From Crossaster papposus (lineage: Eukaryota > Echinodermata > Asteroidea > Velatida > Solasteridae), in NCBI GenBank assembly GCA_037893245.1, contig JBAIAA010000605.1, positions 434,001 through 498,000 on the forward strand: a DNA stretch of 64,000 nt. The letters are read 5' to 3'. Both the position numbers and the translations under genes were made by a program. Positions 6,601 through 56,556 of this stretch are shown here, piece after piece. Every line of letters starts with the position of its first letter. Position 1 is the first letter of the stretch. The notes beneath the pieces were generated by a model that worked only from the letters and a program-made list of their open reading frames with translations, was not told the DNA's origin and made no database searches.

Positions 6601-9600
6601 GCAACGAATGCTACACCAAGGGACCCCTGTTGGGAGCCATTGGGAAGACAGAACTGGAAGAGACCACCCCGGTGGAGGGACTCCTGGCGGCCTGGGATTC
6701 CGAGGAGCTAAGGCAGGAGCAGCGTGACGACCCGGAGCTAGGACGAATCGTCCACTGGCTGGATGAGGGACTCCCCAAACCCGGCTGGTCGGACGTGTCG
6801 GCCCTGGACGAGGGCACGAAATTCTGGTGGGCAAAGTGGGGGACCCTGCGACTGTCACACGGGGTGCTACAGATCGGGTGGGAGCAGCCTCAGGACGGAC
6901 TCCGCAAGTGGAAGGTCGTAGTCCCTCGGACGCGGGTGGAGGACATCTTGCGGCTAACCCATGATTGCAGGACATCGGGACACTTGGGTGTCGCCCGGAC
7001 GGTTGCTCGGTTGAGGCAAGCGCCGGTGTACTTCCGGGAGATGCGACGCCAGGCGATGGAGTGGTGCCAAAAGTGCCACAAGTGCGGTTCAAAGAAGCCG
7101 CCCCCTCGACCCCTCCGGGCCCCACTGCAGCAGTACTTGGTGGGTGCGCCGATGGAGCGCATCGCGATCGACCTCACAGGCCGGTTCCCCAAAACCAAGG
7201 CGGGGAATTCAAGCATCATGGTGGTGGCGGACTATTTCACAAAGTGGGTGGAGGCGTTTCCGATCCCGGACCAGACAGCCCTCACCGTCGCCCGAACCCT
7301 GGTGGAGCAGGTCATCACCCGTTTCGGCACCCCCCTCGAGATCCACACGGATCAGGGGAGGGAGTTCGAAGCCCGACTGTTCCAGGACACTTGCCGTCTA
7401 CTGGGCGTCCACAAGACTCGCACGACGCCGTTCCATCCCCAGTCTGACGGAATGGTGGAGCGATTCAACCGCACCGTTAAGACGATGTTGAGCCTGTTCG
7501 TGCGAGAGAACCAGGATGACTGGGACGAACACCTTCCGTACGTAATGATGGCGTACCGCTCCTCTCAGCACGACAGCACCAAGTTCACGCCGAACATGCT
7601 CATGCTCGGCCGGGAGGTGCGGCTTCCGTTGGACTTGGTGGTGGGACAGCCAGAGGAGCCGACGACAGAGGCAACGGTACAGGAGTACGTAGACGAACTG
7701 AGGGCGAAGATTGAGCGCGCGCACAAATTCGCTCGACAGCACCTGAAGGGGAGCCAAACACACCAGAAGCAGCATTACGATCGTCGGGCCGAGGGTACCG
7801 GTTACGAGCCCGGACGTGCCGTGTGGCTCTACACTCCCTCCAAGAAGGTGGGTCGCACGCCCAAACTACAGTGCTGGTGGGACGGGCCTTTTGTGGTGTT
7901 GAAGAGGACCGACGACGTCACCTACCGGATCCAGAGGTCGCCTCGCGCCAAGGCCAAGGTGGTCCATTTCAACCGGCTTAAGCCATACTTGGGGGACGTC
8001 CAGGTAGACTGGTGGAGACGGGCCGCAGGAAACCATCCAGGGGAACCCAGCCGAGTCACAGAGGAAGGTCAGTCACCGCCGGGGGAACGGTCATCACCAG
8101 CATCTAGCCCAGAGCTTCGGGCTCCTTCGGCGGGGACGGGAGTGCTCGGTCGGATGTAGCGGAACTACCTCCGGAGAGGCCAGAAGGGGAGGCGTCCCAG
8201 CCCGTTGCGGAAACGGATGTCACTCTTGACGGGGTGGAGGAGACGGACGCAGATCTGAGACCGGACGAACCTGAAGGGGAGACGTTCCAGCCCGCTGCGG
8301 AAACAGATGTCACTCTTGACGGGGTAGAGGAGACGGACGCAGAGCTGGGACCGGACGGACCTGAGGGGGAGGGTGTCCAGTCGCCTCCTCCGCCGACGGA
8401 ACCAGGCACCGAACGGTATACTCGCGTTGGCCGGAAAGTAGTCCGCCCTAGTCGATATTGTTTTGCCTTAACCAAACTTTCGTCTCCTCCTTCCCCCCGC
8501 AGGATGACTCCCGTGGCGTGTCCTCACTGTGGGAAGACCTTCACCCGCCGCAGCAACCGCCGCAGGCACATCCGCACTGCGTGCGTGGAGCTCCACGCGG
8601 AACGCCCGTACGCATGCGAGCGTGGTTGCGGCCTTCAGTTCTACCGGGAGGACGTCCGGGGGCGTCACCATCGATATTGCCAAGGGGGGTTGGTGGCTGG
8701 AGTGATGGCGGGGGCGGACACCTTAGACGTCCACCCGAGTGAGGACGAGATGGAGCTCGTCAACGCTGCCAGCCGGGAGCTTTCTCCGCCTTGTCTCTCC
8801 CGACAAGGGAGCCCGGACTTTCTCTGCAGGGGGCGGAGCCAATCAACCGCTGCCAGTCCCGCGTCACTGTCCCGGGCCAAGCGACGACGGAGCCCAGTTC
8901 CGGCGAGGGATCCGGGGGTCCGTCTCCACGCGGAGCGACCTCCCCGGCCCCCTCGGGCGGGACGGAACGAGTCGACCAGCCAGCCACGACCAGAGCAGGA
9001 GGAACTACACCAACCGCCGGGGGACCGCGTCCGCGCGGAGCGATTCCCCCGGCCTCGTTCCAGACGGGACAAGTCGGCCAGCCAGCCACGACCAGGACGG
9101 GAGGGGCTACCTCGACCGCCAAGGGACCACTGCCGCTCGGAGTGTTCCCCCCGGCCTTGTGCAGAATCGGACAAGTCCAACCAGAAGCAGGAACGGCTTC
9201 CTCCGTCGCCCAGGGGCCGTTGGTCGGGACGACGGGGCCACCGGCACCGCTCACGCTGTCCGGAAGGAAGCAGCGCCGCCAGGGCCTCTCCGCCGGCTTC
9301 CGCGGAGGGGGGGACGCAGACGGAGCCTCCGACGCCTCCGCTGGTGGCGACATTCCCGTGGAGTGGGTCGCCCCGGGTCCTGCCGGTCGGATGTCGGGTG
9401 GAGCTGCCGGACGGGACCTGGATGAGGCTGGACATGGACGGCGTCATCCAGCGACCCCATGAGGTGAGGGAGGTGGCCACCCACATGCCGGTCCCCTTAT
9501 GCGAGCACTTGCGGGACGAGTGGCGCCTGGAGACCACGCCCACCGGGTTGGACAGCGACGGCCACCGGCTGTTCCGATCGAGCGTGGTCCACTCCTATGA

Positions 9601-12600
9601 AGTTCCGGGGAGGCTCCTCCAGACATACGAGGGCCAGCAGTACGGCCAGTACTTCGTACATCCGTCAGCGGCGGGCCAGCCTTCGCTGGGAGGACTGCTA
9701 CCCCCTGGGGCACCCCCACCTCCACGCTACCCCGATGACGTGCCACAGGAATTCTGGGAGCAGTTGTTCCGACAGACGGAAGTCCAGCGCCAGCCACCTC
9801 CTACCTCCTAGATGAGAACTTTTAACCAGTGTTGTTTTCTTGTTGTAACCTTAAGGTTGTTTTCTTTTTGTTGTATAAAATGTTGGCGTCGTGCGCTTTC
9901 CGGGGCGGTTGGCCGGGGGGCGGCAGCAGCAGCCCATAGTCTTGTTTGGGGGCAAACAAGGTCTTCGTGGGGGGCTGTGTAGCGCCCGTGCCGGTTGGGC
10001 GGTAGAGGGCGCTGGAGCGGTCCCACGGTGGTGGGATCGCTCCAGGTGGCTCCTGCTGGTGCGCCCCGGCGACCCGCCTTCGGATTGCGCAACGGCCGAA
10101 CCGGTTCTGACCAGTTCTGGTGCCGCGTGATGGTGTAAACCGAATGCCTTGTTTTGTTAGACGAGAGTCGCGATTAAACGGCTGAGAATCACCGGAAGAA
10201 CAAGAATACTTGTGTCAAGAGTCTTTCTTGTGTGTGTAGACGACCCCAGGCGAATCTTCGTTACAATATGTAAAAAATAGCGCAAGGTCCCAAAAACATT
10301 TTGTTGCCATGGCATACCGTAGCGCCACCAATGACAGCTTTGGTCGTGCATATCAAGCATGCGTCATCAATTCTTTTGGGCGGTTGATGGCACTATGCGA
10401 TCTTGGTACATTATTTGGTTCTCGCATTTGTTTTTTTGGAAAAGTACAAAATTGTGTCGGATATGATAGGACAGCTACATGTAGACAGTTTGAAAATACA
10501 GAATCCCAAAGTTTGCAACATTAACAAGATCATTAGTACTGCATGAAAAGACTATCAAATGAAACCAAAAGCCCAAACTGCGGTTTTTGTATCTTTTCTT
10601 TATATCAATGTCCATAGCAACAATAGTTTTCCGGACATTCCGGCCTTTTCAAGAGGGCCGCTGTGTGGCTCACAATAGGGAGGGAGTCCAGTATTTGAGC
10701 CACATTTATGGGGCTAGGCCAAATCTAGAACAAGCCAATCATTTATCGGCCATGCATTTCTGGCCTTGCTCGTGACGTGTTTATGTGTCACCCGTTTTTG
10801 AGTGTAGGGAAAACGTTGTGTGTTTATATACATCCTCCGGCGCTAACTGGTTAAATAATTTATTTTGTATTCGTTGGCGACCCGAAAATGGAGCATGGAG
10901 GGTAGTTTAGGTTGGGGCGCGTTGTTGCGGTTGGGGCGCGTTGTTGCGGTTGGGGCGCATTGTTGCAGTTGGGGTGTGTTGTTGCGGTTGGAGCGCATTG
11001 TTGCGGTTGGGGCAGAGGCCTGTTTCTTATGGCTTTACCATTAAGTGCCCATTTTTCCAGATTTAATTGAATTTCAAGTTTGTTTCACCTTATTGACAGC
11101 AACACAGACATGTGTATGTATTGCAAAAAAGTCTGATGAACATTAAAATAAAAGATGATTTGAACTGTGACTGTCTCCAAGTGTTCGTTTTTGCTTCTTT
11201 ACGTAGAAGTTTGCCCAAAGGATAAAATCACCATCTCTAACCAAAAAAAAGTACCGGTACATGTACCGGTATATTTTCAGTTTTGCTAACTAGCAAATCT
11301 CATGATCTAAAAATCATATGAAAGGTTACAGTATGCCAAAGGTGAATATTAAAAACAACAAACCTAATGCCATTGATTCTCATGGTGAAAAGAAATATGA
11401 AACATTGTTGGCATCGATGAGTACTGTACATAATCTTCGTGGGACAGCCTGTACAGGCACCCCCATTGAAAAGGCTCATCGTGCAATTGTCAGCCCTGCC
11501 TGGGGCCGCCAGAAAGCCCAGCAAGGTAAACAGTGGATTACAGGGGCCAATTTCTAGCTGCTAAGCAAAAAAAAATTGCTTAGCACAAAAAAGTCTTGCT
11601 CATTAAACAAACAGGTTATTAGCCAAAATTATACGTGTTTTTCATGCTAAGCAAACAAACAGCTGATTATCAATCCAGAACAATAAAGATCAGGTGAAAA
11701 TTTGGTCTGTAACCTTGTTTTTGCCAAGGACAAATTGTCATGCTAAGCACATTTTTGTGCTAAGCAACTCTATGAAATTGGCCCCAGGTGTCACCTTGTT
11801 TGTAGTCTCTTTGGAAATTTAAACAATTTTTGTGGGCATTTTCTTATTTGTCCTGCCTAACACTAGGCATGCAGAAGATCAATTTCTCTGGTGGTGAACC
11901 GTTCATCGTGCAGAGAGGCAAGTTTGTTGGGGAACTTGTACAATTCTGCAAAGTTGACCTTCAGCTTCCTAGTGTCACTATAGTCAGCAATGGTAGCCTG
12001 ATAGCTGAGAAATGGTTTAAAACCTACGGTAAGTCAGAGGCAAACAAATCGCTGAGAAATAAAGAAACAAAAACAGAAATCATGACAGTGTTGTAAGCAA
12101 ACCCTTGGGAAAGAAACAATCAATGATACAAAGACTTCAACAACAAAGTATTTAAACACCATTCTGAATGTTGGAATCCCTCAGTCTCCTCACGAAGGGA
12201 CAGAGCATACTATCCAAAACATTGAATTCCATCCGGTTCTTTTTCAGAACTACACATCTCACTAAAGATATTTACCACATGATTTTACGACAAACTGTTT
12301 ATTGTATTACCTTTTTTGCCATGCAAACCTTCAAATCTCACCTGAAGATAAAAATATCAGGCCCTCTTAATTTATTGGATTCATTCTGAATAACTTAAGA
12401 TCAGCAGAAACTTGTTCAGTATTCAATACTTGCGTTAAATATTTGTGAATTCAGCCTTGAAAAGAAACAAAGTGACTTTAAAAATAAAAATTAGACCTGA
12501 AATGAATACGATGGGAGTCAAACATGTCAAGTTAAAAGTGTTCTTTGATTAGATTTGAGGCAAACACCTTAATTGAGAATCTTTTCCATTGATAAAAGAT

Positions 12601-15600
12601 ATATTTTGAAATTGAAATTTGTGTGGTTTGTATTAACATACTACTGCTGTTTTATGTTTCATTTTCTCTCAGGTGAGTACCTTGACATCTTGGCTATTTC
12701 CTGTGACAGTTTTGATCCAGAAGTCAACAAGCTGATTGGTCGACAGCAAGGCAAGAAGAACCACCTTGACAGTTTGAGACTCGTCCGAGACATGTGTACC
12801 AAATACAAGGTACTGCACATGTACACTGTACACTGCCTGAATCAGACAACTTGTGGGTGAAAAAACCATCAAGCAAATTGTAGTCATTGTTTTGTCACAA
12901 AATTCTCCTGAGACTTCCAGAGAATTTAACAAGTAATCCTTCATTACGAGTGTCGCCTTTTTCAAAGTCGATCCCTATATGTTTTACATTAAAAAACATT
13001 GTGCAAGTTTAAGAGATGACCTCAAGTGACCCCTGCATGACCTTTGACCTCAGTAAACAGATGAAGAATTGTCTTCCCATCCAAGGGTCACTGCATACAA
13101 GTTTTATCAAAATCCATAAAAGCATGTAGAAGTTATACAATTTTTTTCCGCTAAAACTTAAACAGTATGTACGGTTATACAGAGCGACATGTACAGTATT
13201 TTACGGAGCTGTACCAAAATGTAGGGCCTATTGCCCCCAAAACTTCATAAGGCGGAACAAACAAATAGTCAGAAAATTGAGATTTAATGAATTTAATTTT
13301 AAATTTTAAGTTCTAATAAATGTAATATATTATACCTACATGTAGAGGGTTTGTTATTTTATTAATTTCTTTTATTAATGTTAAGGGTTGTCATAAAAAA
13401 ATCCACATTGGCACATTTTCTACACCAGGTTGCGTTCAAGATCAACAGTGTAATTAACACCCACAACAAAGATGAAGATATGGCTGACTATATCACTGAC
13501 CTGGATCCAGTCAGATGGAAGGTTAGTAAGCTGGACATTATTAGACCAAGATGAAGATATGGCTGACTATATCACTGACCTGGATCCAGTCAGATGGAAG
13601 GTTAGTAAGCTGGACATTATTAGACCAAGATGAAGATATGGCTGACTATATCACTGACCTGGATCCAGTCAGATGGAAGGTTAGTAAGCTGGACATTATT
13701 AGACCAAGATGAAGATATGACTGACTATATCACTGACCTGGATCCAGTCAGATGGAAGGTTAGTAAGCTGGACATTATTAGACCAAGATGAAGATATTAT
13801 ACAAATATTGACTGCTTTGAGTGGTATAGTAAAACTAGCCTCCCGAGGTGATCCATGGAGCATTCTATTTTCCCGAGGCGAAGCCGAGGGAAAATAGAAT
13901 GCTCCATGGATCACCGAGGGAGGCTAGTTTTACTATACCGCGAAATAAAGCAGTCAATATTTGTTTTATAACACCTCACTCACAGATTATGCACAATTTA
14001 AGCTTCCTGAAAGTATAGTAATGACAAAAAATCTCCGAATTATACGTCTCTCGATCATACGTGTACTTTGTTGCCTTGATGAACGGGTGCGAAGGTGATA
14101 GAGCAATGTTTACGCAATGCACCGAAACACACGTCTGGGTTTCAGTCACGCTTTCGTTGCTATGCGCATCGTTCGTGTGTTGCTATGCGCATAGTCCTTT
14201 TTGCGTGGTATAGTCTTTTTGGATAGCGCAAGTAAAAAATAGTAAAAATAGCAAGTGACACGTGCCGCGCTCTCGGCCAATCAAGACACAGAATTTGTGA
14301 GTGAGGTGTTATAAGACTGACTATATCACTGACCTGGATCCAGTCAGATGGAAGGTTAGTAAGCTGGACATTATTAGACCAAGATGAAGATATGACTGAC
14401 AATATCACTGACCTGGATCCAGTCAGATGGAAGGTTAGTAAGCTGGACATTATTAGACCAAGATGAAGATATGGCTGACAATATCACTGACCTGGATCCA
14501 GTCAGATGGAAGGTTAGTAAGCTGGACATTATTAGACCAAGATGAAGATATGGCTGACTATATCACTGACCTGGATCCAGTCAGATGGAAGGTTAGTAAG
14601 CTGGACATTATTAGACCAAGATGAAGATATGGCTGACAATATCACTGACCTGGATCCAGTCAGATGGAAGGTTAGTAAGCTGGACATTATTAGACCAAGA
14701 TGAAGATATGGCTGACTATATCACTGACCTGGATCCAGTCAGATGGAAGGTTAGTAAGCTGGACATTATTAGACCAAGATGAAGATATGGCTGACTATAT
14801 CACTGACCTGGATCCAGTCAGATGGAAGGTTAGTAAGCTGGACATTATTAGACCAAGATGAAGATATGACTGACTATATCACTGACCTGGATCCAGTCAG
14901 ATGGAAGGTTAGTAAGCTGGACATTATTAGACCAAGATGAAGATATGGCTGACTATATCACTGACCTGGATCCAGTCAGATGGAAGGTTAGTAAGCTGGA
15001 CATTATTAGACCAAGATGAAGATATGACTGACTATATCACTGACCTGGATTCAGTCAGATGGAAGGTTAGTAAGCTGGACATTATTAGACCAAGATGAAG
15101 ATATGGCCGACTATATCACTGACTTGGATCCAGTCAGATGGAAGGTTAGTAAGCTGAACATTATTAGACCAAGATGAGATATGGCTGACAATATCACTGA
15201 CCTGGATTCAGTCAGATGGAAGGTTTGTAAGCTGTTTTTAATCTTTTTGTGCAAATACCGTATGCACCTTAATTTTGTCTTACAAAAAATACTTCTCAGT
15301 CGGGCGTCGCAGACGTGTATGTACACGCACAGTTTTTCCGGAATTCAAAAATGAATTTTAACAGATAAACATGTCACAAACAAAGACGAAATTTTCTTTC
15401 AGCGATTAGGTGTGAACTTGTTAACAAAAAGTTTTTTAAAAACTGACAACAATTTTATGGCTTTCATATACATGTACATGTATTTTTTTTGGCAGTTTCT
15501 AAAAGTTGTGTATACTGATTTCCTACAAATAAAGATAACTGAATTAGATATACATGTAAGCTGCATAAATGTACAGCAAAACTTGTTTAGATTTAATTTT

Positions 15601-42147: not shown

Positions 42148-42309
42148 ATGTCAGCGCCCATGAGAACTGAAGAGAAATTAGTCGAAACAAGCGGAACCAC
42201 ATGTTCCACACACACGTATCTCAACAGATATGTTTGTATAGAATGTGGAAAGTACGCCGCTGCACTGTACACAATTTACAGTGGAGGAGTGATTAAAATC
42301 GCGCACTGT
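42148..42309 (+). CDS. ARV1: ARV1 exon 1: first half of the zinc ribbon
   Basis: ATG 42148 (CCAAGATG context) to donor gtaaga at 42310, phase 0. It encodes 54 residues including RYVCIECGK and ends at the third zinc-ribbon cysteine (KIAHC). Confidence 0.9.
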
Positions 42310-45300
42310 GTAAGACTTTTAAGTTTTATGAATTTGTGAGGAGGGCCCAGTTTCCGGACATAACATAATGCAATGATTTTTATAGTCCCATTATGTGGCA
42401 GTATATTGGACTCTCTCCGTATACAACTTTACACAAGGCCACATGTCCATATCTCCTAAAACTTCTCAAGTAACCCCAAATCGCAGGAGACGTTTAGGTT
42501 TCAGGTGCTGAAATTCTCACTAAGTTCTGTATTATCATATACTAAATTACTTAGACCGAGTTACTGGCCTCTAGTACTACCTAGTTATCGCTTTTTATTT
42601 GGACATTGTCTGGCGCTACCAGAGGCCGAGCCAGACTAATATTAATAACTAATTTTTGAAAAGTCTTAAATGTTGTTCAAAAAGTCGCCAAAATCCACAA
42701 AAATACTTAAACAAAAAAGGTAGGGTACACCATTGGTAATTGCTTGAATTATCATGAATGGGTGGATTTGGGGGGTTGTATTTTATAGCTATTGTTTAAC
42801 TGACCTGTCCGAAGTTTTACAATCGTGGTGGATGCCGAGAAAATCACAAAAAACAGCAATTGTTTTCAACCGGCGTCGGGCAGTTATTCTTATGTTATTA
42901 TTGTTTTTTCGCGATCACCGGACGGCGATCGCAAATTTTGTTTTATAAAATTCTATTTTTTTGAATAATTACAGGATATCTAGTGCTATCATTTTGCTGG
43001 ATGCTTACAATCATTGTTTACTTTCAAATAATTAAGTTATTTCTTATTAATTCGGTAGTAAATATTTTCGATATATGCAAATGTTGTACCCTACCTTAAC
43101 AAAATACCTCTAAATCGTCTAAATAGCCTTCCATATGTGTCCAAGCTTGGTTTACGAACTTGAAAGGTACTCACGATCAATTCTTGACGTGCAAATCAAG
43201 GAAATTCGACGACAGTATTTGAGCGAGTACTGCACACTTGTTGTTCACCATGTTCGGGTTTCCTCTAGTTGCCCTTGTGTTTTGGAGTCGAGTAGATGTC
43301 TGCCAGTATCAACCAATCCCTTTGTTATCTTGTACATCATGATTAATCTGTTGGTTTTTCTCTGTGTCTCTAGAGGAGCCCAGTCCAGTCTCTGGAGTAG
43401 ATTAGTGACAGTTCCTGCTGTTTGATTATATTCACTTAAGATGAACCTTGCAGCTTGCTTCTGTACTTGTTCCAAGCAGTAAATGTCACCCTTTAGATGT
43501 GGATCCCAGGCAGATGAAGAATATTCCAATAGAGGTCGAACCAACATGGAATATGCAGGTTTTTTTCTCATCGAGCTGCAGCTCCACATGTTTCTTCTGA
43601 GTATCCCAGGAATCCTCCTTGCATTTTTACATGTTTCTGTTACATGTATGTGTTTTTTTACAGGACAAGGAATTAGTGATGTAGACCCCAAGATATTTTG
43701 TTATGATCAACACTTTGTAGATCCTTCCCACATAAGCTATATGTGCTATAGTTGTTGGTTTACGAAGTCCAATTGAGATTGTGCTACATTTTGAAGAGTT
43801 GAATTTCAGTCTCTATGTTGACTGCCAAGATTCTATCCTTTGAAGATCTTGGTGAAGCTGAGTCTTGTCTGTATTGTAAGGCAATCATCGGCAAAGAGAC
43901 GAACCTTTGAAGACAGATTCTGCCATTCAGCCATCCCACCCACAAAAACATTTCCCCCAAAACCACCTTTCCCACATGACTTTAAAACCCAAATTATGCA
44001 TTTGAAATTCAAGTAATCTTTCTACATCTCTCCATATGACCAGACAAACTGCACCCAAGTTGTGGATAAGTACATTGAGTTTGATCCTGTCATCATTCTT
44101 CTTGATGTGCTTCTATACAAACCACAAGCCTACAGGCACGTCTTGTTCAACACCAACAGTAACGTGAGTCTTAATCCTCAACCCTAACCCAAACCACAAG
44201 CCTACAGGCACGTCTTGTTCAACACCAACAGTAACGTGAGTCTTAATCCTTAAAGGTAGTATACAACAGTAACGTGATTCTTAATCCTCAACCCTAACCC
44301 AAACCACAAGCCTACAGGCACGTCTTGTTCAACACCAACAGTAACGTGAGTCTTAATCCTCAACCCTAACCCAAACCACAAGCCTACAGGCACGTCTTGT
44401 TCAACACCAACAGTAACGTGATTCTTAATCCTCAACCCTAACCCAAACCACAAGCCTACAGGCACGTCTTGTTCAACACCAACAGTAACGTGAGTCTTAA
44501 TCCTTAAAGGTAGTATACAACAGTAACGTGATTCTTAATCCTCAACCCTAACCCAAACCACAAGCCTACAGGCACGTCTTGTTCAACACCAACAGTAACG
44601 CGAGTCTTAATCCTTAAAGTTAGTATACAACAGTAACGTGATTCTTAATCCTCAACCCTAACCCAAACCACAAGCCTACAGGCACGTCTTGTTCAACACC
44701 AACAGTAACGTGATTCTTAATCCTCAACCCTAACCCAAACCACAAGCCTACAGGCACGTCTTGTTCAACACCAACAGTAACGTGAGTCTTAATCCTTAAA
44801 GTTAGTATACAACAGTAACGTGATTCTTAATCCTCAACCCTAACCCAAACCACAAGCCTACAGGCACGTCTTGTTCAACACCAACAGTAACGTGATTCTT
44901 AATCCTCAACCCTAACCCAAACCACAAGCCTACAGGCACGTCTTGTTCAACACCAACAGTAACGTGAGTCTTAATCCTTAAAGTTAGTATACAACAGTAA
45001 CGTGATTCTTAATCCTCAACCCTAACCCAAACCACAAGCCTACAGGCACATCTTGTTCAACACCAACAGTAACGTGAGTCTTAATCCTTAAAGTTAGTAT
45101 ACAACAGTAACGTGATTCTTAATCCTCAACCCTAACCCAAACCACAAGCCTACAGGCACGTCTTGTTCAACACCAACAGTAACGTGAGTCTTAATCCTTA
45201 AAGTTAGTATACAACAGTAACGTGATTCTTAATCCTCAACCCTAACCCAAACCACAAGCCTACAGGCACGTCTTGTTCAACACCAACAGTAACGTGAGTC

Positions 45301-48300
45301 TTAATCCTTAAAGTTAGTATACAACAGTAACGTGATTCTTAATCCTCAACCCTAACCCAAACCACAAGCCTACAGGCACGTCTTGTTCAACACCAACAGT
45401 AACGTGAGTCTTAATCCTTAAAGTTAGTATACAACATTTGTAAACATACAAAACAAAACTACCAAATTAATGTGAAATTATTATTATTTATTTCTGGTAA
45501 TGAAACCAAGGATCCCTCAAAAGTGCTCTAGGCACTGTAGCTCATAAGCCTGAAGAAACCTGTAGAGAGAAGACAATTGAGAAGAAGGTACAGTTTTAGA
45601 GGTGGGAGGAAAACCCAAGAAGGATATATCCTAAGGAAAACCCACGGAATCAAGCAGGGACTGAAAACCCAATCCACATATTGGCCCAGGCCGGATTCAA
45701 ATCAGGGCCCAATTTCTTGGCTCTGCTTACCGTTAGCGAAAAATCCCAGCTTACTATAGCAGTCAATTCGGTGCTTACGGTAAACGTATTTCATGTGTTA
45801 GCGAGGAATTTCGGTCTCTGAGCATGCGTACATCCCGTAACTAAGGATTCTGTGCTTACAGGGTTAGCGCAAATTTTTTCTGCTAGCGCGGTTAGCGGAA
45901 AATGGTGACCGTAAGCGCGGAATTCTGTGGTTAGCAGAGCCAAGAAATTGGGCCCAGGTCATAGTGGTGGAAGGCAATGAAAAAACTGCTACGCCAACCT
46001 GATTCCCTAAATACCTTAAGCCCTGTTCGCACTGGACTTTTTTTGATTAAACGTACCGAGACGATGGGTACTTTTACCATTATAAGTCCAGTGAGGACAG
46101 CCTAGGACGTTTTCCTCTCAGGTACTTCTCCCGAGTCCAGTGGCTACTTCTACCGGCCAACTGCTGCCCGGTTAAACTTCCCAGGTCACTTTTCCCTAGA
46201 CGATAAGTCCAGTGCAAACAGCGCGTGTCGGTAAAAGCGGCCCAGGAAAACGTACATGCGGCCTCCTAGTGCAAGGCCACGCTACACAAGACACCGCGCA
46301 TGCGCTCTTTGCATTGTTTACGTGCGGGCACGCTACTTCGGCTACTTCTCCCGTGGTCTCGGTAACATTTTCCCGTGTCAAAAGTCCAAGTGCGAACAGT
46401 GGTAACATTTGACCATTTTTTATTTTACCATCATCTCAGTAAAACCTTCCCCCCAAAAAGTCCAGTGCGAACACGGCTTTACTCGACTAGTGGATTGTTG
46501 GTGAATGACAGTCTAAAGCATCCTGTTTAATTATGCCACCATTTTAAAGAAAAGTGGTATTTTTATATTAATTTCCAACGCTGGTCGGCAGATCAGTTGG
46601 AAATACTACCACCAATTTACCATATTTAGTTAGTCTGCATTTTTTCAGCAATCAATCTAAACGGGTACAGGCCAAAAGTGTCAAAACATACCAATAAAAA
46701 CCCTTGTGACACAGTAGAGAGTCAATGAACAACTCTACTCACGTGTGGTTTGATCAGATCTTTAGAGAGAGAAACTAAATCGAATTGAACTCTGATACAG
46801 TTAAAGGGATCGTATACGTTTGGTAATTGGAACCCACTGTTTGTTTCAATCCTATATAGTTATCATAGATATATACCATAAAACTAACCTGTAAAAATTC
46901 CATTTTAAAAGGTGGTAGCGATTTTGAGATATTGCCGAAAATCTGTCCACGCAGGAATAAACAATCTGAGAAACGTCACTGCAGTAACGCTTCTCAGATT
47001 CAAATTTTGGGGGATAAAAAGTGATATTTTTTTTCATAACCGCAGTACTTCGAAGTGAAAAGTTTCTAAAAATGCATTATACTATCTAAAGCTGTTGTAC
47101 TTCTTACCAAGTAAGTTTTTATTGCCATTAAATTTTGGAGTAATTACCAAACGTATACGATCCCTCTAAGTACAACCTTGCATGACCATTGTTAACTTGG
47201 ATGATATTGATTTGGTTTTCACGTTGCACTATAGATCCATTGGAAACTGAGTATTCTGTGTTTACTGTGTGATGCTTACACCAAATGGGCCCAGCGCTCT
47301 AAACTCAACTCGGCCAGTGATCCACTCAACAGACAGTTCCTCTTCTTCGCCATGCAGTGGCATTTCTACATCATGTTTATCATTGCAGGACTAGGTGGGT
47401 ATATAACAATCAGGGGGGTGGGGGGGGGGGGGTAAAGATAGAGGTACATATAGGGGTACATGTAGGAGGGTATATTAGAATCACGGGTGGGTGGGGGGGT
47501 TAAGAGTAAAAATAGTGGTATGTTTGATTTACTTTGTACAGATGGGTCTATGCATTGCTCAGTGTTCAGGATCATGACTGTGATGACTGGCATTTGGCTG
47601 TGTGTGTTGGAGTGTGAAATTTATCTTTCTGTAAAATCTTTCTCTAGCTAGGCGCTATAACAGGCAAAAAATGTAAGTGCGCCACAGTTAGGGGCTGTGC
47701 CAGTTACGGCTGCGCCACGTTAGGGGCCACGCCACGTCAACAATAATCTTACCACACTTCTCGCAACTCCGATCCGTTGTCTTTGTTTTCCTTGTCTTTG
47801 TCAGAGTTGGGTGCCTTTCTCATTGGTGTTGTCATATCAACACTTCTTCATGGATCAATCACAGGATCCAAGGAGATATGGTACGTACAATGTATGAATC
47901 TACATTTGTATAATTTATGCATCAGTTGCACAGATTGTCTTGCCTACAGGTTTCCACTCCTAGTTGTACTAAATCCAATTATCACATAAATCTTGTCAGA
48001 AATGAAACCAAGAACAAACAGTTTGACAGCTGAGGTGAATTATTGGCACAGAACAAAAGTACATAAACCTACATGTACAACAATTAAAAGTTAACACTGC
48101 GAATAGAAATGGGAAAGTTTGTGAAAATTTTTTTATTTCCCATTCACATTCTCTTCAACCATTTTGCATGCAATTGTCCTACCTGTGTTAAAAGGTATGA
48201 AAATCAGTAACCCACTTGTGTGAAAAGGTTTTAACAATTGTGTGAAAAAGTGCCAAATGTGGGAAATCTTTTTCACACTTTTTCACACTTTTTCACAATT

Positions 48301-51300
48301 TAATAATGAAAAAAAAAATTCTGAGAAGAAAATAATTGTGAAAGGAATTTGCCTTTCTCAGGTTAACTTTGAATTGCACTGCACTGTACATTTCATTTGA
48401 GCATTACCCACTTTGCAATGTGCAATCTTTGTATAATGAATTGCCATTTCCCATTTCAAACACATGGATCCAGTTGTGTTTCTGGAACAAGGTTTTTATT
48501 CAAATATTTGTATCGGTTTCAGTTGTTCAGTTGAATACACCATCAATCTTTGCCAAAATTGTTTTTTTGTTACATAGCAATTAAACTGCGAGTTATAGAT
48601 ATCGGCCCTGAGTTGCATGATGCTTGTAATGAGGTAATTGGACCTGGAAGTTCAATCGTGACATTTGTGCGCGAGACTTACACGGTCTATTGACCTTTCT
48701 TGCCAATGTTGTCAAAAAAGGGAGATTATATCATCAGAATATGTCATCAAAATAACCAAAAAATGCTATTATGCTAAAAGAGAAAAATGCTTGTGGCCAA
48801 TCACTGCTCAATGTTGTGGCCAATCACTGCTCAATGTTGTGGCCAATCACTGCTCAATGTTGTGGCCAATCACTGCTCAATGTTGTGGCCAATCACTGCT
48901 CAATGTTGTGGCCAATCACTGCTCAATGTTGTGGCCAATCACTGCTCAATGTTGTGGCCAATCACTGCTCAATGTTGTGCCCAATCACTGCTCAATGTTG
49001 TGGCCAATCACTGCTCAATGTTGTGGCTACAACCAACCCTAACCCAATAAGTTGTAAAAGATCTTGTTAAAATAAATTGATTCAGCATTGTTAGGTTAAT
49101 CAATCCAATTCTTAAAGGGATCGTATACGTTTGATAATTGTAACCCATTGTTTGTTTCAATCCTATATAGTTATAGATATATACTAAGGGTGTGCGTTTA
49201 CGGGTAGTACGGGACCCAGGTACCCTATTCCCGTCACGGTCGGGTACCCGGGTACCCGTGACTATTATTATAATCATAACAAAATCCCGGAAGTATACAC
49301 CGCGTCGGCACGTGCATGTACATCCCCGCTCGATCCACTAGCAAGCTGCAGCGCGCGCTGGCATGGCATGCTTACTTCCCCTGCATTCCGCAACTAAACA
49401 AATGCAGGGGCCTACTTTGCAACTCGGGGTTCGACGCAAACAAAATATAGTCACTCAAAACAGCGGCGGTCTAGTCAAAACATTTTTCTAAGTAGTCCGG
49501 CGGTCCAGTGAAAAAAAAACAACAGGCGCAGTTTTCAGAGCCAGATTGTCAACAGCGATCCCGTATTGCGTGGAGTTTACTCTCAGCTTAATAAATGTTT
49601 GTAAATGAATTGACTTGCCGCTCCCCATAATTGCACTTCTACAGTGGCACGTCTTTTTCCAAAATAAATAAGGTTCAATGAACTAAATCCTTTGAGTGAG
49701 CCGACACGAAATGTAGCAAAAAAGCCGACCGCAGATGGGCTGGCGGCAGAGTTGATACAATAGAACCAAATCCCTCTCCTGCAGTATCAGGTTTCAAAAC
49801 CACATTCCAGGTACGGGTCCTGGGATCGTGAATTAATTCAGCACATTTTCCAAAAAGTAAACCTCGGAAAAACTGACTCAAAGGACAACTGCAACAAAAC
49901 ACTGATACAATGTCGGCCGCAAGTTATAGCAGCTGTCAGAATTGTAGGTAAATAGACTTCAAAGGCATTTTTTTATCACAATGACTACAAAGAAAGCACA
50001 ATCATCCGTTAGGCTGCTATCTAGACATCGGGAAATTGTCAGTAAAGACGTTTTACTCAGATGTTTTCTAACAATTTATCGGCACGCAATGAACATAAAA
50101 GACGCTTACTTGCCTTTCTGAAATAATGTGTCAACATTTACAAAGGCAGTTTCGGGTAATAAAATCGATAAATCTGAGCCGGGTACCCGCAATCAGCGGT
50201 CGGGTTACGGGTACCCGGGTACCCGGCACGGCCTTAATATATACCATAAAACTAACCTATAAAAATTTCATTTCAAAAGGTGGTAGCGATTTCGAGATAT
50301 AGCCGAAAATCTTGAGCGGTTATGTCCACGCAGGAAGAATAATCTGCATTGGAATACACAATCTGAGAAACGTCGCTGCAGTAACGCTTCTCAGATTCAA
50401 ATTTTGGGGGATAAAAAGTGACATCTTTTTCCATAACCGCAGTACTTCGAAGTTAAAAGGTTTTTTTAAATGCATTATACTATCCAAAGCTGCTGTACTT
50501 CTTACCAAGTAAGTTTTTATTGCCATTAATTTTTTGAGTAATTAACAAACGTATATGATCCCTTTAAATGACTTTCAATGAAACCTATAAACAAAAATAG
50601 TCATGTGTTTCCGTCTGATAGTGCATTAAAAACTACATTTTAATCTGGATATGAAGTGGGCATAGTTTGGTTGAACCTAGGACCTTTTTGAATCCCTGGA
50701 TTTGTTTTGTTTTAGGCTTAAGTCAATTTATGCCCCTATCTGTGGGAACTCAGCTGCATGCCTGTTAAATGCTTCAGAAACATTCAATCAGTTGATATGA
50801 AGCTAAAAGTTAGAATCTTTCTATTTGGTTCAGAATGATTCAGAAGCCGAAAGTGAAACCAAAGCCACAAATGAAGCAAAGGTTTCAAAAACCCTCCTAA
50901 ATAAATGCAAATCCAACTTCAAGTCAGCAAAAATTTGATTTTTTTTTTTTCAATTGACAGCAAGTCATTACTTCTGCGGTCTTTACTCCTGAGCTGTGTA
51001 GGGAAGCTACTAGTAATACCCATGGTCATCTGGGGAACGACAGACATTGAGACTTGTATGTGGTTGACGCGGCTATTTGTGTTCACATCAGCTACCCAGG
51101 CCTTAAGAGGTAAGGATTCCTTTTGTTTTCAATTGACAGTAAGTCATTACTTCTGCGGTCTTTACTCCAGAGCTGTGTAGGGAAGCTACTAGTAATACCT
51201 ATGGTCATCTGGGGAACGACAGACATTGAGACTTGTATGTGGTTGACGCGGTTATTTGTGTTCACATCAGCCACCCAGGCATTAAGAGGTAAGGATTCCT

Positions 51301-54300
51301 TCTTGTTTTCAATTGACAGTAAGTCATTACTTCTGCGGTCTTTACTCCTGAGCTGTGTAGGGAAGCTACTAGTAATACCTATGGTCATCTGGGGAACGAC
51401 GGACATTGAGACTTGTATGTGGTTGACGCGGCTATTTGTGTTCACATCAGCTACCCAGGCCTTAAGAGGTAAGGGTTCCTTCTTGTTTTCAATTGACAGT
51501 AAGTCATTACTTCTGCGGTCTTTACTCCTGAGCTGTGTAGGGAAGCTACTAGTAATACCTATGGTCATCTGGGGAACGACAGACATTGAGACTTGTATGT
51601 GGTTGACGCGGCTATTTGTGTTCACATCAGCAACCCAGGCCTTAAGAGGTAAGGATTCCTTCTTGTTTTCAATTGACAGTAAGTCATTACTTCTGCGGTC
51701 TTTACTCCTGAGCTGTGTAGGGAAGCTACTAGTAATACCTATGGTCATCTGGGGAACGACAGACATTGAGACTTGTATGTGGTTGACACGGCTATTTGTG
51801 TTCACATCAGTGACCCAGGCATTAAGAGGTAAGGATTCCTTCTTGTTTTCAATTGACAGTAAGTCATTACTTCTGCGGTCTTTACTCCTGAGCTGTGTAG
51901 GGAAGCTACTAGTAATACCTATGGTCATCTGGGGAACGACAGACATTGAGACTTGTATGTGGTTGACGCGGCTATTTGTGTTCACATCAGCTACCCAGGC
52001 CTTAAGAGGTAAGGGTTCCTTCTTGTTTTCAATTGACAGTAAGTCATTACTTCTGCGGTCTTTACTCCTGAGCTGTGTAGGGAAGCTACTAGTAATACCT
52101 ATGGTCATCTGGGGAACGACAGACATTGAGACTTGTATGTGGTTGACGCGGCTATTTGTGTTCACATCAGCTACCCAGGCCTTAAGAGGTAAGGATTCCT
52201 TTTGTTTTCAATTGACAGTAAGTCATTACTTCTGCGGTCTTTACTCCAGAGCTGTGTAGGGAAGCTACTAGTAATACCTATGGTCATCTGGGGAACGACA
52301 GACATTGAGACTTGTATGTGGTTGACGCGGTTATTTGTGTTCACATCAGCCACCCAGGCATTAAGAGGTAAGGATTCCTTCTTGTTTTCAATTGACAGTA
52401 AGTCATTACTTCTGCGGTCTTTACTCCTGAGCTGTGTAGGGAAGCTACTAGTAATACCTATGGTCATCTGGGGAACGACGGACATTGAGACTTGTATGTG
52501 GTTGACGCGGCTATTTGTGTTCACATCAGCTACCCAGGCCTTAAGAGGTAAGGGTTCCTTCTTGTTTTCAATTGACAGTAAGTCATTACTTCTGCGGTCT
52601 TTACTCCTGAGCTGTGTAGGGAAGCTACTAGTAATACCTATGGTCATCTGGGGAACGACAGACATTGAGACTTGTATGTGGTTGACGCGGCTATTTGTGT
52701 TCACATCAGCAACCCAGGCCTTAAGAGGTAAGGATTCCTTCTTGTTTTCAATTGACAGTAAGTCATTACTTCTGCGGTCTTTACTCCTGAGCTGTGTAGG
52801 GAAGCTACTAGTAATACCTATGGTCATCTGGGGAACGACAGACATTGAGACTTGTATGTGGTTGACACGGCTATTTGTGTTCACATCAGTGACCCAGGCA
52901 TTAAGAGGTAAGGATTCCTTCTTGTTTTCAATTGACAGTAAGTCATTACTTCTGCGGTCTTTACTCCTGAGCTGTGTAGGGAAGCTACTAGTAATACCTA
53001 TGGTCATCTGGGGAACGACAGACATTGAGACTTGTATGTGGTTGACGCGGCTATTTGTGTTCACATCAGCTACCCAGGCCTTAAGAGGTAAGGGTTCCTT
53101 CTTGTTTTCAATTGACAGTAAGTCATTACTTCTGCGGTCTTTACTCCTGAGCTGTGTAGGGAAGCTACTAGTAATACCTATGGTCATCTGGGGAACGACA
53201 GACATTGAGACTTGTATGTGGTTGACGCGGCTATTTGTGTTCACATCAGCTACCCAGGCCTTAAGAGGTAAGGGTTCCTTCTTGTTTTCAATTGACAGTA
53301 AGTCATTACTTCTGCGGTCTTTACTCCTGAGCTGTGTAGGGAAGCTACTAGTAATACCTATGGTCATCTGGGGAACGACAGACATTGAGACTTGTATGTG
53401 GTTGACGCGGCTATTTGTGTTCACATCAGCTACCCAGGCCTTAAGAGGTAAGGATTCCTTCTTGTTTTCAATTGACAGTAAGTCATTACTTCTGCGGTCT
53501 TTACTCCTGAGCTGTGTAGGGAAGCTACTAGTAATACCTATGGTCATCTGGGGAACGACAGACATTGAGACTTGTATGTGGTTGACGCGGCTATTTGTGT
53601 TCACATCAGCTACCCAGGCCTTAAGAGGTAAGGGTTCCTTCTTGTTTTCAATTGACAGTAAATCATTACTTCTGCGGTCTTTACTCCTGAGCTGTGTAGG
53701 GAAGCTACTAGTAATACCTATGGTCATCTGGGGAACGACAGACATTGAGACTTGTATGTGGTTGACGCGGCTATTTGTGTTCACATCAGCTACCCAGGCC
53801 TTAAGAGGTAAGGGTTCCTTCTTGTTTTTAATTGACAGTAAGTCATTACTTCTGCGGTCTTTACTCCTGAGCTTTGTAGGGAAGCTACTAGTAATACCTA
53901 TGGTCATCTGGGGAACGACAGACATTGAGACTTGTATGTGGTTGACGCGGCTATTTGTGTTCACATCAGCTACCCAGGCCTTAAGAGGTAAGGGTTCCTT
54001 CTTGTTTTCAATTGACAGTAAGTCAGTACTTCTGCGGTCTTTACTCCTGAGCTGTGTAGGGAAGCTACTAGTAATACCTATGGTCATCTGGGGAACGACA
54101 GACATTGAGACTTGTATGTGGTTGACACGGCTATTTGTGTTCACATCAGTGACCCAGGCATTAAGAGGTAAGGGTTCCTTCTTGTTTTCAATTGACAGTA
54201 AGTCATTACTTCTGCGGTCTTTACTCCTGAGCTGTGTAGGGAAGCTACTAGTAATACCTATGGTCATCTGGGGAACGACAGACATTGAGACTTGTATGTG

Positions 54301-56556
54301 GTTGACACGGCTATTTGTGTTCACATCAGTGACCCAGGCATTAAGAGGTAAGGGTTCCTTCTTGTTTTCAATTGACAGTAAGTCATTACTTCTGCGGTCT
54401 TTACTCCTGAGCTGTGTAGGGAAGCTACTAGTAATACCTATGGTCATCTGGGGAACGACGGACATTGAGACTTGTATGTGGTTGACGCGGCTATTTGTGT
54501 TCACATCAGCTACCCAGGCCTTAAGAGGTAAGAGTTCCTTCTTGTTTTCAATTGACAGTAAGTCATTACTTCTGCGGTCTTTACTCCAGAGCTGTGTAGG
54601 GAAGCTACTAGTAATACCTATGGTCATCTGGGGAACGACGGACATTGAGACTTGTATGTGGTTGACGCGGCTATTTGTGTTCACATCAGCTACCCAGGCC
54701 TTAAGAGGTAAGGATTCCTTCTTGTTTTCAATTGACAGTAAGTCATTACTTCTGCGGTCTTTACTCCTGAGCTGTGTAGGGAAGCTACTAGTAATACCTA
54801 TGGTCATCTGGGGAACGACAGACATTGAGACTTGTATGTGGTTGACACGGCTATTTGTGTTCACATCAGTGACCCAGGCATTAAGAGGTAAGGGTTCCTT
54901 CTTGTTTTTAATTGACAGTAAGTCATTACTTCTGCGGTCTTTACTCCTGAGCTGTGTAGGGAAGCTACTAGTAATACCTATGGTCATCTGGGGAACGACA
55001 GACATTGAGACTTGTATGTGGTTGACACGGCTATTTGTGTTCACATCAGTGACCCAGGTATTAAGAGGTAAGGGTTCCTTCTTGTTTTCAATTGACAGTA
55101 AGTCATTACTTCTGCGGTCTTTACTCCTGAGCTGTGTAGGGAAGCTACTAGTAATACCTATGGTCATCTGGGGAACGACAGACATTGAGACTTGTATGTG
55201 GTTGACGCGGTTATTTGTGTTCACATCAGCCACCCAGGCCTTAAGAGGTAAGGATTCCTTCTTGTTTTCAATTGACAGTAAGTCATTACTTCTGCGGTCT
55301 TTACTCCAGAGCTGTGTAGGGAAGCTACTAGTAATACCTATGGTCATCTGGGGAACGACAGACATTGAGACTTGTATGTGGTTGACACGGCTATTTGTGT
55401 TCACATCATTGACCCAGGCATTAAGAGGTAAGGGTTCCTTCTTGTTTTCAATTGACAGTAAGTCATTACTTCTGTGGTCTTTACTCCAGAGCTGTGTAGG
55501 GAAGCTACTAGTAATACCTATGGTCATCAGGGGAACGACGGACATTGAGACTTGTATGTGGTTGACGCGGCTATTTGTGTTCACATCGGCTACCCGATCC
55601 AGGTAAGGGAGCTTTAACCAAGGTAAAATCTCAGGAACGTTTCACTGAGCACTTCAAAGCAATGAAATTGTTGTTAATTGCGACTAACATGCAGTTTAAG
55701 GTTGATTTACCCAACAATAATTGTACATGTACATTGTTCTGAAGTAGGCAGCAAATTAATTCACTAGATTTGCTACTCGAGTTGCTGATTGTATTCCGGT
55801 TTTTTTTTAAGTAACAGAAGTGTTGCTCAAAGAAAACCAACAAACTTACATTGACTTGCTCAAAATGCTTGCTACATAAACTTTGAAATCTACAGATCAA
55901 AGAGACTTTTACTATATTACGTGATTCAGGGACAGTTTTACGCTAGCAACCCCCAGCTCAAAAAATAGTCTGGTGTCTTTGGGCCATTCTCACCCATTGA
56001 GAACAATGAACAATGGTGCCGAGTGTCTCTTACGTAAGTATGCAAGAGTTTGCACCAAATCACGTTGCATATATAGGGTGGCCCCCAAAATAACGGTCAA
56101 AGTGCCAAATTGGTAAACAAACGGTGGATTCTTTCTGGAGAAAAAGATATTAAAGATAGGGTCTGGAGCTAAAACTACTGGACCAAAATGAGATTTCTTG
56201 GTCTCTTGGTTTTTCTTTTAGAAGGATTCTCCATCCATTAGTAGAGATAGTTTTGGCTTTGGGTGGTGTGTGCTTGTCTATTTTTTTTGTGGGCCACCCT
56301 CTATAGTAACAGTCTCTTTGGTCTGGAGATCGTGGGAAAGTTAAAATGTGCCAAGCATTTTGAGCAAGTCGGTGCACCAGATGTTAACTCGCAAATGGTT
56401 AATCCCGATTTCTTCTCTGTTTTTATTGCAGTCATAATGCATTCACATACTGCAGTGGCGAGCAGTTTGATCTTGTTGGGGTTTTCAGCACAGTATCTGT
56501 CCACCCATCTTTCACCCCTTCTGGAGTGGGTTTTGATGCAGGACTTGGCTTTATGA
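42148..56556 (+). CDS. ARV1: ARV1 lipid-homeostasis membrane protein, 6 exons, 263 aa
   Basis: ARV1 is an ER multi-span protein needed for sterol distribution and GPI-anchor synthesis (family knowledge). Coding exons are 42148-42309, 44044-44163, 47235-47394, 47805-47880, one copy of exon 5 (first copy 50961-51109) and 56432-56556. All introns are GT-AG and phases run 0, 0, 1, 2, 1, giving 792 nt or 263 residues; the human protein is 271. The N-terminal Arv1 homology domain has the zinc ribbon CIEC (Cys30, Cys33) with CTNC (Cys54, Cys57), then [11 protein letters not shown] and the [11 protein letters not shown] motif. Hydrophobic segments come from exons 3-4, exon 5 (two) and exon 6. Exon 5 exists 26 times in tandem, and the 3' end of exon 2 has its own array. 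The gene appears functional if exactly one exon-5 copy is spliced in. Confidence 0.92.
42714..43098 (+). mobile_element. TTAA-type MITE, AGGTAGGATACACCATT family, in ARV1 intron 1
   Basis: Ends AAGGTAGGGTACACCATTGG and GTTGTACCCTACCTTAA. The inside carries GCGATCACCGGACGGCGATCGC, the family's central palindrome. Confidence 0.87.
43135..43945 (-). pseudogene. LINE reverse-transcriptase fragment in ARV1 intron 1
   Basis: On the minus strand, 43245-43691 stays open and encodes [19 protein letters not shown], then [23 protein letters not shown] and [12 protein letters not shown], the C-terminal RT region of CR1/Jockey-like non-LTR elements. Upstream on the same strand a broken frame shows the catalytic box RLFADDCL (near 43881-43899). 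5'-truncated and frameshifted. Confidence 0.87.
44044..44163 (+). CDS. ARV1: ARV1 exon 2 (founder of the 72/110-bp array)
   Basis: Acceptor gaccag, donor gtgagt at 44164, phase 0/0, 40 residues. It supplies the fourth zinc cysteine and the [20 protein letters not shown] and [11 protein letters not shown] signatures of the Arv1 homology domain. Confidence 0.92.
44119..45436 (+). repeat. 72/110-bp tandem array of exon 2 end plus donor, 14 copies
   Basis: The exon words ACCACAAGCCTACAGG through ACCAACAGTAAC, followed by gtgagt or gtgatt, recur with starts at 44121 (true exon), 44193, 44303, 44375, 44447, 44557, 44667, 44739, 44849, 44921, 45031, 45141, 45251 and 45361. Spacing is 72 or 110 bp. 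The longer type has an extra 38 bp containing TTAAAG(G/T)TAGTATACAACA and a second donor. Each unit carries CAACCCTAACCC. Reading past the true donor meets TAA in this segment. Confidence 0.95.
45474..45704 (+). repeat. Dispersed-repeat-like segment
   Basis: The text GTGGGAGGAAAACCCAAG, GAAAACCCACGGAATC and GGATTCAAATCAGGGC resembles the 3' portion of widespread SINE/LINE families in marine animals. The assignment rests on memory of style, not on alignment. Confidence 0.35.
45705..45955. mobile_element. 251-bp MITE with GGGCCCAATTTCTTGG ends
   Basis: Perfect inverted ends of about 23 bp (GGGCCCAATTTCTTGGCTC and complement) enclose TTAGCG-rich sequence. It lies in ARV1 intron 2. Confidence 0.9.
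46017..46480. mobile_element. 464-bp MITE with GTTCGCACTGGACTTTTT ends
   Basis: The left end AGCCCTGTTCGCACTGGAC and the complement of the right end (AGTCCAGTGCGAACACGGCT) match with few differences. The AAGTCCAGTG word recurs inside. A lone end of the same family is at 34236-34258. Confidence 0.85.
46801..47169 (+). mobile_element. TTAA-type MITE, AGGGATCGTATACG family, intact
   Basis: Starts TTAAAGGGATCGTATACG and ends CGTATACGATCCCTCTAA. Internal CGCAGTACTTCGAAGT is shared with the copy at 49112-50567. It lies 65 bp before ARV1 exon 3. Confidence 0.88.
47235..47394 (+). CDS. ARV1: ARV1 exon 3
   Basis: Acceptor ctatag, donor gtgggt at 47395, phase 0 in and 1 out. It encodes [18 protein letters not shown], a polar linker, and the start of a membrane segment ([10 protein letters not shown]). 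Confidence 0.92.
47805..47880 (+). CDS. ARV1: ARV1 exon 4
   Basis: Acceptor tgtcag, donor gtacgt at 47881, phase 1 in and 2 out. 76 nt encoding [17 protein letters not shown], which completes the first membrane segment. Confidence 0.92.
48793..49030 (+). repeat. 23-bp tandem repeat, about 10 copies
   Basis: GTGGCCAATCACTGCTCAATGTT repeated almost perfectly. Because 23 is not a multiple of three and the unit has no stop, three long overlapping frames appear; none is a gene. It contains the CCAAT word in each unit. Confidence 0.95.
49112..50567 (+). mobile_element. TTAA-type MITE, AGGGATCGTATACG family, split by an insertion
   Basis: TTAAAGGGATCGTATACG at the left and GTATATGATCCCTTTAA at the right, homologous on both flanks of the nested element to the intact copy at 46801-47169. 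Confidence 0.88.
49185..50236. mobile_element. Nested hAT-like non-autonomous element, 1,052 bp
   Basis: It begins TAAGGGTGTGCG and ends CGGCACGGCCTTA (imperfect inverted ends). It is flanked by a perfect 8-bp duplication ATATATAC (49177-49184 and 50237-50244), the length typical of hAT transposases. Subterminal GGGTACCCGGGTACCCG words occur near both ends. No transposase is visible. Confidence 0.9.
50961..51109 (+). CDS. ARV1: ARV1 exon 5, first copy
   Basis: Joins exon 4 in phase 2 and exits in phase 1, as exon 6 requires. It encodes [20 protein letters not shown], a membrane segment, then [11 protein letters not shown] and [14 protein letters not shown]. Its upstream polypyrimidine tract is the strongest in the array, so it is the likely default copy. 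Confidence 0.85.
55459..55602 (+). CDS. ARV1: ARV1 exon 5, divergent last copy (26th)
   Basis: A 144-nt copy whose 3' end reads GGCTACCCGATCCAG before gtaagg, instead of the usual TTAAGAG. It also has unique Trp and Arg substitutions (LLLWSL, MVIRG). Its length is a multiple of three, so it exits in phase 2 and would join exon 6 in another frame. It may be a pseudo-exon or an alternative exon. Confidence 0.7.
56072..56305. mobile_element. 234-bp mariner-like MITE
   Basis: The left end TATAGGGTGGCCCCCAAAA and the complement of the right end (TATAGAGGGTGGCCCACAAA) are inverted repeats, with TA at the borders. It sits in the last ARV1 intron. Confidence 0.82.
56432..56556 (+). CDS. ARV1: ARV1 exon 6: C-terminal segment
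   Basis: Acceptor attgcag. With the phase-1 base of exon 5 it reads VIMHSH, then a hydrophobic segment ([15 protein letters not shown]), and stops at TGA 56554-56556. A second frame through the same exon, reachable from the divergent last exon-5 copy, stays open for about 60 codons to TAG near 56612. Confidence 0.83.

Follow-up and report, generated by a model that had tools for sequence, protein, structure and literature searches.

Results

The ARV1 gene and its single locus

The window, by which we mean the whole stretch of 64,000 nucleotides analysed here, corresponds to positions 434001-498000 of a 2.27-Mb contig (C605) in a genome assembly of 1.02 Gb and 1841 contigs; coordinates are those of the window unless stated otherwise, and the exons and exon-boundary arrays described in it lie on the forward strand. 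The gene that carries the repeated exon had been predicted to be ARV1, and our analyses agree. A six-exon model, using one copy of exon 5, gives a 263-aa ARV1 protein, whose nearest relative among 48 protein matches is the ARV1-like protein of Patiria miniata (86% identity over the full query), followed by that of Asterias amurensis (63%), a ranking from which we take the host to be a starfish, probably close to Patiria. Compared with P. miniata, exon 1 (42148..42309, ...CIEC...KIAHC, donor gtaaga) has 44 of 54 residues equal, a count that leaves out the extra residues of P. miniata, exon 2 (44044..44163, ending in NTNSN, donor gtgagt) 34 of 40, exon 3 (47235..47394) 48 of 53, exon 4 (47805..47880) 18 of 26 and exon 6 (56432..56556, including the stop codon) 36 of 41. 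The repeated exon is exon 5 of this model, as originally proposed, and it is the best conserved of all (47 of 49 residues). Exon 2 gives the best match to the Arv1 profile (61.8 bits, 1.8e-14) and exon 1 a weak one (21.2 bits, E 0.21), while exons 5 and 6 together score 25.9 bits against the curated Pfam cut-off of 20 (Arv1, PF04161).

In a search of the whole assembly (E up to 10, all 44 candidates being scored), all 30 Arv1 profile matches fell at this locus, and no retrocopy or second ARV1 locus that could reveal the exon content of the mRNA was found. As the sole ARV1 locus found, with exon 5 the most conserved of its exons against P. miniata, the gene presumably works. The P. miniata protein contains one exon-5 segment, which says nothing of the copy number in its genome.

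Anatomy of the exon 5 array

Tandem Repeats Finder (TRF) reported a single array at 50947-55595, with a period of 180, 25.8 copies, 97% matches and a score of 8780. A unit scan anchored at the acceptor gave 26 units, the first exon starting at 50961 and the last at 55459, with GTAAG after every exon; a second scan, with a pattern inside the exon that excluded the splice sites, also gave 26, each preceded by AG. The 26 copies of the original prediction are thus confirmed as present as such in the assembly, and acceptor AG and donor GT are kept in 26 of 26 units. The predicted exon length of 149 nt holds for 25 of the 26 copies, the last having 144 nt, and the predicted spacer of 31 nt for 23 of 25 cases, with 30 nt after copies 1 and 7. 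Copy 1 (50961..51109) is the sole copy with the native intron upstream. Copies 2-25 (51140..55427) are 149-nt exons separated by 30-31-nt spacers, each singly in frame with exon 6. Copy 26 (55459..55602) is a degenerate terminal copy, in which AGGCCTTAAG is swapped for GATCC just before the donor; it is out of frame with exon 6 and carries the private amino-acid changes R6W and W24R. The exon had also been said to encode two membrane segments; in the 49-aa peptide the first is clear (15-residue hydropathy maximum of 2.3), but the second half is weakly hydrophobic (0.97). A separate 23-nt minisatellite of 10.5 copies lies in intron 4 (48786-49027, TRF).

Pairwise comparison of the first 25 units gives a mean difference of 2.3%, in agreement with the earlier description of the copies as homogeneous and un-Dscam-like; with this difference and 8 nonsynonymous changes in all, they are not diverged alternative copies giving different isoforms. 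The density of changes is similar in the spacer (4 in 31 nt, one of them an indel) and in the exon (19 in 149 nt). A 1,079-bp block comprising units 1-6 recurs as units 7-12 with 2 mismatches, both at bases private to copy 1, an array edge. This reflects either a recent block duplication or a doubling by the assembler. Of the three interpretations first offered for the array, a young expansion and an exon-derived satellite fit best with this recurrence.

The third, a splicing buffer, finds little support. Among the 26 copies there are 18 coding changes, 10 synonymous and 8 nonsynonymous, and the synonymous share exceeds the 0.298 expected under random change (P 0.020; 9 of 15 and P 0.015 without the private changes of copy 26), both tests being rough because the copies are not independent. 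This excess is the one hint in favour of a buffer, and may reflect constraint, present or past, on more than one copy. The intact splice sites were rejected as a sign of selection: given 22 substitutions, and considering substitutions only, the chance of no lesion in the core sites and frame is P 0.25, and with a wider consensus P 0.11.

Reading frames and splice signals

In silico, 25 of the 26 exon 5 copies yield an intact protein of 263 aa when spliced in singly. Joins of two copies are in frame in 0 of 325 cases, with products of 232-235 aa, and the same is true of three copies (0 of 2600) and four (0 of 14950), the range of one to four copies being that enumerated for spliced joins. This loss of frame follows from exon length alone, 149 not being divisible by 3. 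When spacers are retained, 168 of 325 composites are open, the longest (copies 8-25) reaching 1283 aa, while copies 1-26 with all spacers kept run into a stop at 245 aa, owing to the spacers of 30 nt. A working ARV1 therefore requires either a single copy or a run of copies whose spacers stay unspliced. Open frames of 1137 codons (forward) and 1156 codons (reverse) in the array were discarded as evidence of coding, since with a period of 180 nt any unit frame that lacks a stop recurs from unit to unit.

Efficient splicing is reported to need about 50 nt between the 5' splice site and the branch site, and on one pre-mRNA a distance of 35 nt abolished assembly (PMC6692369). In human, introns of only 43 and 49 nt undergo splicing, through a route that lacks an explanation (PMC8363638), so any such minimum is not absolute; the 30-31-nt spacers of the array are below 43 nt, the shortest human intron named in the excerpted part of that source. 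Because the spacers fall below these lengths, splicing of neighbouring copies to each other seems unlikely. A perfect yTnAy motif within -18 to -45 is found upstream of copy 1 alone among the 26, at -23; copies 2-26 have at most three of the four positions in this range, and copy 26 has a perfect motif just beyond it, at -47. Exons 2 and 4 of ARV1 are likewise without a perfect motif, so the branch-point result favours copy 1 without proving it. In polypyrimidine content the internal copies are within 0.05 of copy 1. The exon used in the mRNA is probably copy 1.

Other exon-boundary arrays in the same genome

The exon 5 array is not unique, as several genes of the same genome bear exon-boundary arrays. 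ARV1 itself has a second one (44118..45436), in which the final 46 nt of exon 2 and the donor region occur 14 times, spaced by 72 or 110 nt, with donors GTGAGT in 10 of 14, GTGATT in 3 and GCGAGT in 1; its units contain a telomere-like CAACCCTAACCC stretch. A viperin/RSAD2-like gene has an exon at 13429..13521 (Radical_SAM, 2.2e-16 for exons joined by hand) and an array at 13469..15234, in which the final 53 nt of the exon and 26 nt of intron recur 16 times, with donors GTTAGT in 15 of 16 and GTTTGT in 1. An insert of some 510 bp, which on visual inspection resembles an inverted repeat, splits this array at about 13803-14315, and a retroelement (2004-9811), with a polyprotein-like long frame and internal repeats, also judged by eye, separates the first exon of the gene from later ones. 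About 35-36 kb past the end of the window (L030), 17 units made of 62 nt from a probable exon plus 27 nt all have the donor GTAAG; this gene matched no Pfam family. A kinesin gene on contig C17 has 8 units of 133 nt, 6 of 8 with the donor GTAAGT. Finally, two further kinesin loci on contigs C1238 and C1108 (L034 and L036) carry units of about 145 nt, 8 on the former and 3 on the latter, the C1238 array lying at the contig end; the contigs are 93.8% alike over their best 756-bp match, and the loci may be alleles or paralogues.

Counting C1238 and C1108 once, there are six array-bearing exons in five genes. All six arrays include the donor, and the exon's own acceptor is included in the ARV1 exon 5 array but in none of the other five. 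Repeated donors may be tolerated because the first donor would end the exon, with the rest falling into the intron.

We then estimated frequency from profile matches by eye, an array being at least three evenly spaced matches to the same part of a model, a definition that misses two-copy cases. Kinesin gave the arrays at C1238, C1108 and C17 (139 matches, 122 of 243 candidates scored). No exon array was seen for CCT (72 matches, 74 of 74 candidates scored; a weak overlapping pair on C643), for myosin (99 matches, 65 of 228 scored) or for the ABC membrane domain (89 matches, 89 of 194 scored). In a non-satellite sample made up of the window and 19 of 25 10-kb loci, TRF found 7 arrays with a period of 50 or more and no fewer than 5 copies, including the exon 5 array, and 4 of the 7 span the 3' end of an exon. 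The remaining three lie at 2777-3358 of the window, at 6238-6796 of L020, where no exon was recognised on reading, and at 5473-6053 of L031. TRF arrays were called exonic by an open frame followed by a donor, a rule that may miss acceptor or exon-interior arrays; the kinesin arrays were found irrespective of donors. A three-copy array at 8590-8900 of L014 was rejected as a donor array for lack of a convincing exon on reading. The genome is rich in tandem repeats and satellites: 6 of 20 picked ten-kb stretches (L009, L010, L023, L026, L027 and L028) are at least 99% tandem repeat (period of at least 10).

A repeat-bearing ARV1 model from an annelid

A search with a five-copy composite of the exon, among candidate proteins of about 277-880 aa only, returned four proteins, and several copies of exon 5 were seen in none of them; P0003, P0039 and P0045 (284-328 aa) were judged by the table of matches and P0049 was read. 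P0049, a partial ARV1 gene model of 558 aa from the tubeworm Ridgeia piscesae, has a repeat of 17 residues located in another exon than exon 5. Over residues 71-391, 5-mers of a hand-made 51-nt unit, translated in all three frames, cover 259 of its 558 residues. This repeat would be explained if the exon running into LLCDTYLKW had a tandem array at its 5' end that was mistaken for coding sequence. In that case, P0049 would represent an acceptor-side mirage in an annelid.

Discussion

In this work, we have analysed an array of 26 exon 5 units in the ARV1 gene of a starfish. We propose, as the fairly probable reading, that it is a mirage-type minisatellite, in which copy 1 is the likeliest exon used and the rest is an intronic passenger. 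The founder segment would by chance have spanned the whole 149-nt exon 5 plus about 14-20 nt of the intron before and about 7-11 nt of that after. The array would then have grown by duplication of single units and multi-unit blocks, for which we infer unequal exchange or replication slippage, and the mechanism would most likely be passive. The mature mRNA would hold one exon 5 copy, the other copies leaving with the intron. Copy 1 is the likeliest choice because it is the sole copy with both the original intron and the full branch-point motif, and because its donor is met first; neighbouring copies would not be joined, as the 30-31-nt spacer appears too short to accommodate both a branch point and a 5' splice site, while an mRNA joining two to four copies would meet a premature stop. 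Against the passenger part of this reading, copies 2-26 may still be alive, given that exons 2 and 4 do without a perfect branch-point motif too, that copy 26 has one at -47, and that the internal copies match copy 1 in polypyrimidine content to within 0.05.

If the other copies are alive, the array could be redundant, any of copies 1-25 being used, one per mRNA, as a buffer against the loss of exon 5, with exclusivity brought about through the shortness of the spacers and the removal of multi-copy mRNAs by nonsense-mediated decay. We consider this unlikely. It accords with the usability of 25 of 26 copies singly, the loss of frame whenever two to four copies are joined, the synonymous excess (P 0.02) and the intact splice sites, but the last are expected by chance after 22 substitutions (P 0.25 or 0.11). 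Furthermore, the near-identical peptides mean that little diversity is gained, nothing seen would stop the joining of non-adjacent copies, which are more than 200 nt apart, and the five sibling arrays copy exon ends only, useless as spare exons. The same loss of frame might instead serve regulation, frequent multi-copy splicing lowering ARV1 expression through nonsense-mediated decay: every join of two to four copies loses the frame, and pairs stop at 232-235 aa. There is no sign of selection for such a poison array, the frame loss following from exon length alone, and we give this role very little credence.

Two further explanations concern the reality of the copies, in the protein or in the genome. 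Splicing from the acceptor of one copy to the donor of a later one with the spacers kept would add 60-aa repeats to the protein, as allowed by a period divisible by 3, open spacers and the 168 of 325 composites in frame. Such a coding repeat is very improbable: copies 1-26 together stop at 245 aa, no repeated exon 5 was seen in the four proteins found with the composite query among candidates of about 277-880 aa, and a membrane protein would probably not work once dozens of segments had been added to it. An assembly error, by which the copy number is wrong or the 1,079-bp block (units 1-6/7-12) was doubled by the assembler, would fit the 2 mismatches between the blocks and the single locus in the assembly. 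We consider it quite unlikely, as the contig is 2.27 Mb long, the window contains no N, the units carry both shared and private variants, and such arrays recur, in siblings with other units and in the kinesin pair with 8 and 3.

Why do these arrays include donors? In this starfish lineage, 5' splice sites themselves might be hot spots at which tandem repeats arise, a doubtful idea at present. The donor is part of the arrays in all six array-bearing exons across five genes, five of them without their own acceptor, but the Ridgeia ARV1 model suggests an array on the acceptor side, and in amphioxus arrays occur on either side. If the idea were true, a process tied to the transcription or splicing of exon ends could seed minisatellites, and whole-exon arrays like that of ARV1 exon 5 would be raw material for new exons and introns.

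The wider habit of exon-boundary arrays in this genome is more interesting than the ARV1 array itself. Such arrays are naturally occurring material for testing how the spliceosome picks one of several identical splice sites, and whether introns and alternative exons are created when splice sites are duplicated in tandem. They also warn gene predictors that exon-boundary arrays can yield false coding repeats.

How does the ARV1 array compare with known systems? Dscam1 is a mutually exclusive exon cluster. Such clusters are named, with Dscam1 among them, in PMC9013439. The ARV1 array resembles them in having many tandem exons, only one of which is usable without breaking the frame, but its copies are homogeneous, its spacers measure 30-31 nt, its siblings are exon fragments, and there is no known regulated choice. 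With LPA kringle IV-2, whose units are kilobases long and all of whose copies enter the mRNA, it shares a homogeneous exon array and perhaps a copy number set by unequal exchange; unlike there, joins of two to four copies of ARV1 exon 5 are out of frame.

The closest parallel is with the mirages of amphioxus, the original report of which is said to be that of Canestro in 2002. These are tandem repeats across exon-intron boundaries, found in Adh3 and the globin genes BflGb6 and BflGb9, on the donor side and on the acceptor side, and with deviant edge units (PMC3087553). Troponin C was later added to the mirage genes, and PGBD5 repeats were likened to mirages (PMC3902484). By RT-PCR, regular splicing is reported to be undisturbed by amphioxus mirages (PMC3087553, PMC3902484). 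As in amphioxus, the starfish units span exon-intron boundaries, the inner units are concerted while the edge is excluded from homogenisation, copy 26 having the most private changes, several genes are hit (ARV1 with two arrays, the viperin-like gene, L030 and two kinesin genes); copy number, which differs between versions in amphioxus, may do so here as well if the kinesin loci with 8 and 3 units are alleles. Mirages have been described in amphioxus, and the accounts of them, in the parts of these sources considered here, concern lancelets (PMC3087553, PMC3902484); among the listed papers touching on echinoderms we found no report of such arrays at the level of titles and abstract beginnings. 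The several starfish genes, together with the traces in a tubeworm gene model, suggest that mirages are a wider animal phenomenon. The present case differs from those of amphioxus in its echinoderm host, in its 26 units against 6 and 3 in BflGb6, in a unit that comprises the whole of exon 5 and both splice sites, and in that splicing is known there and is here read from sequence alone. The ARV1 exon 5 array is thus best read as an exceptionally long, whole-exon mirage in a starfish.
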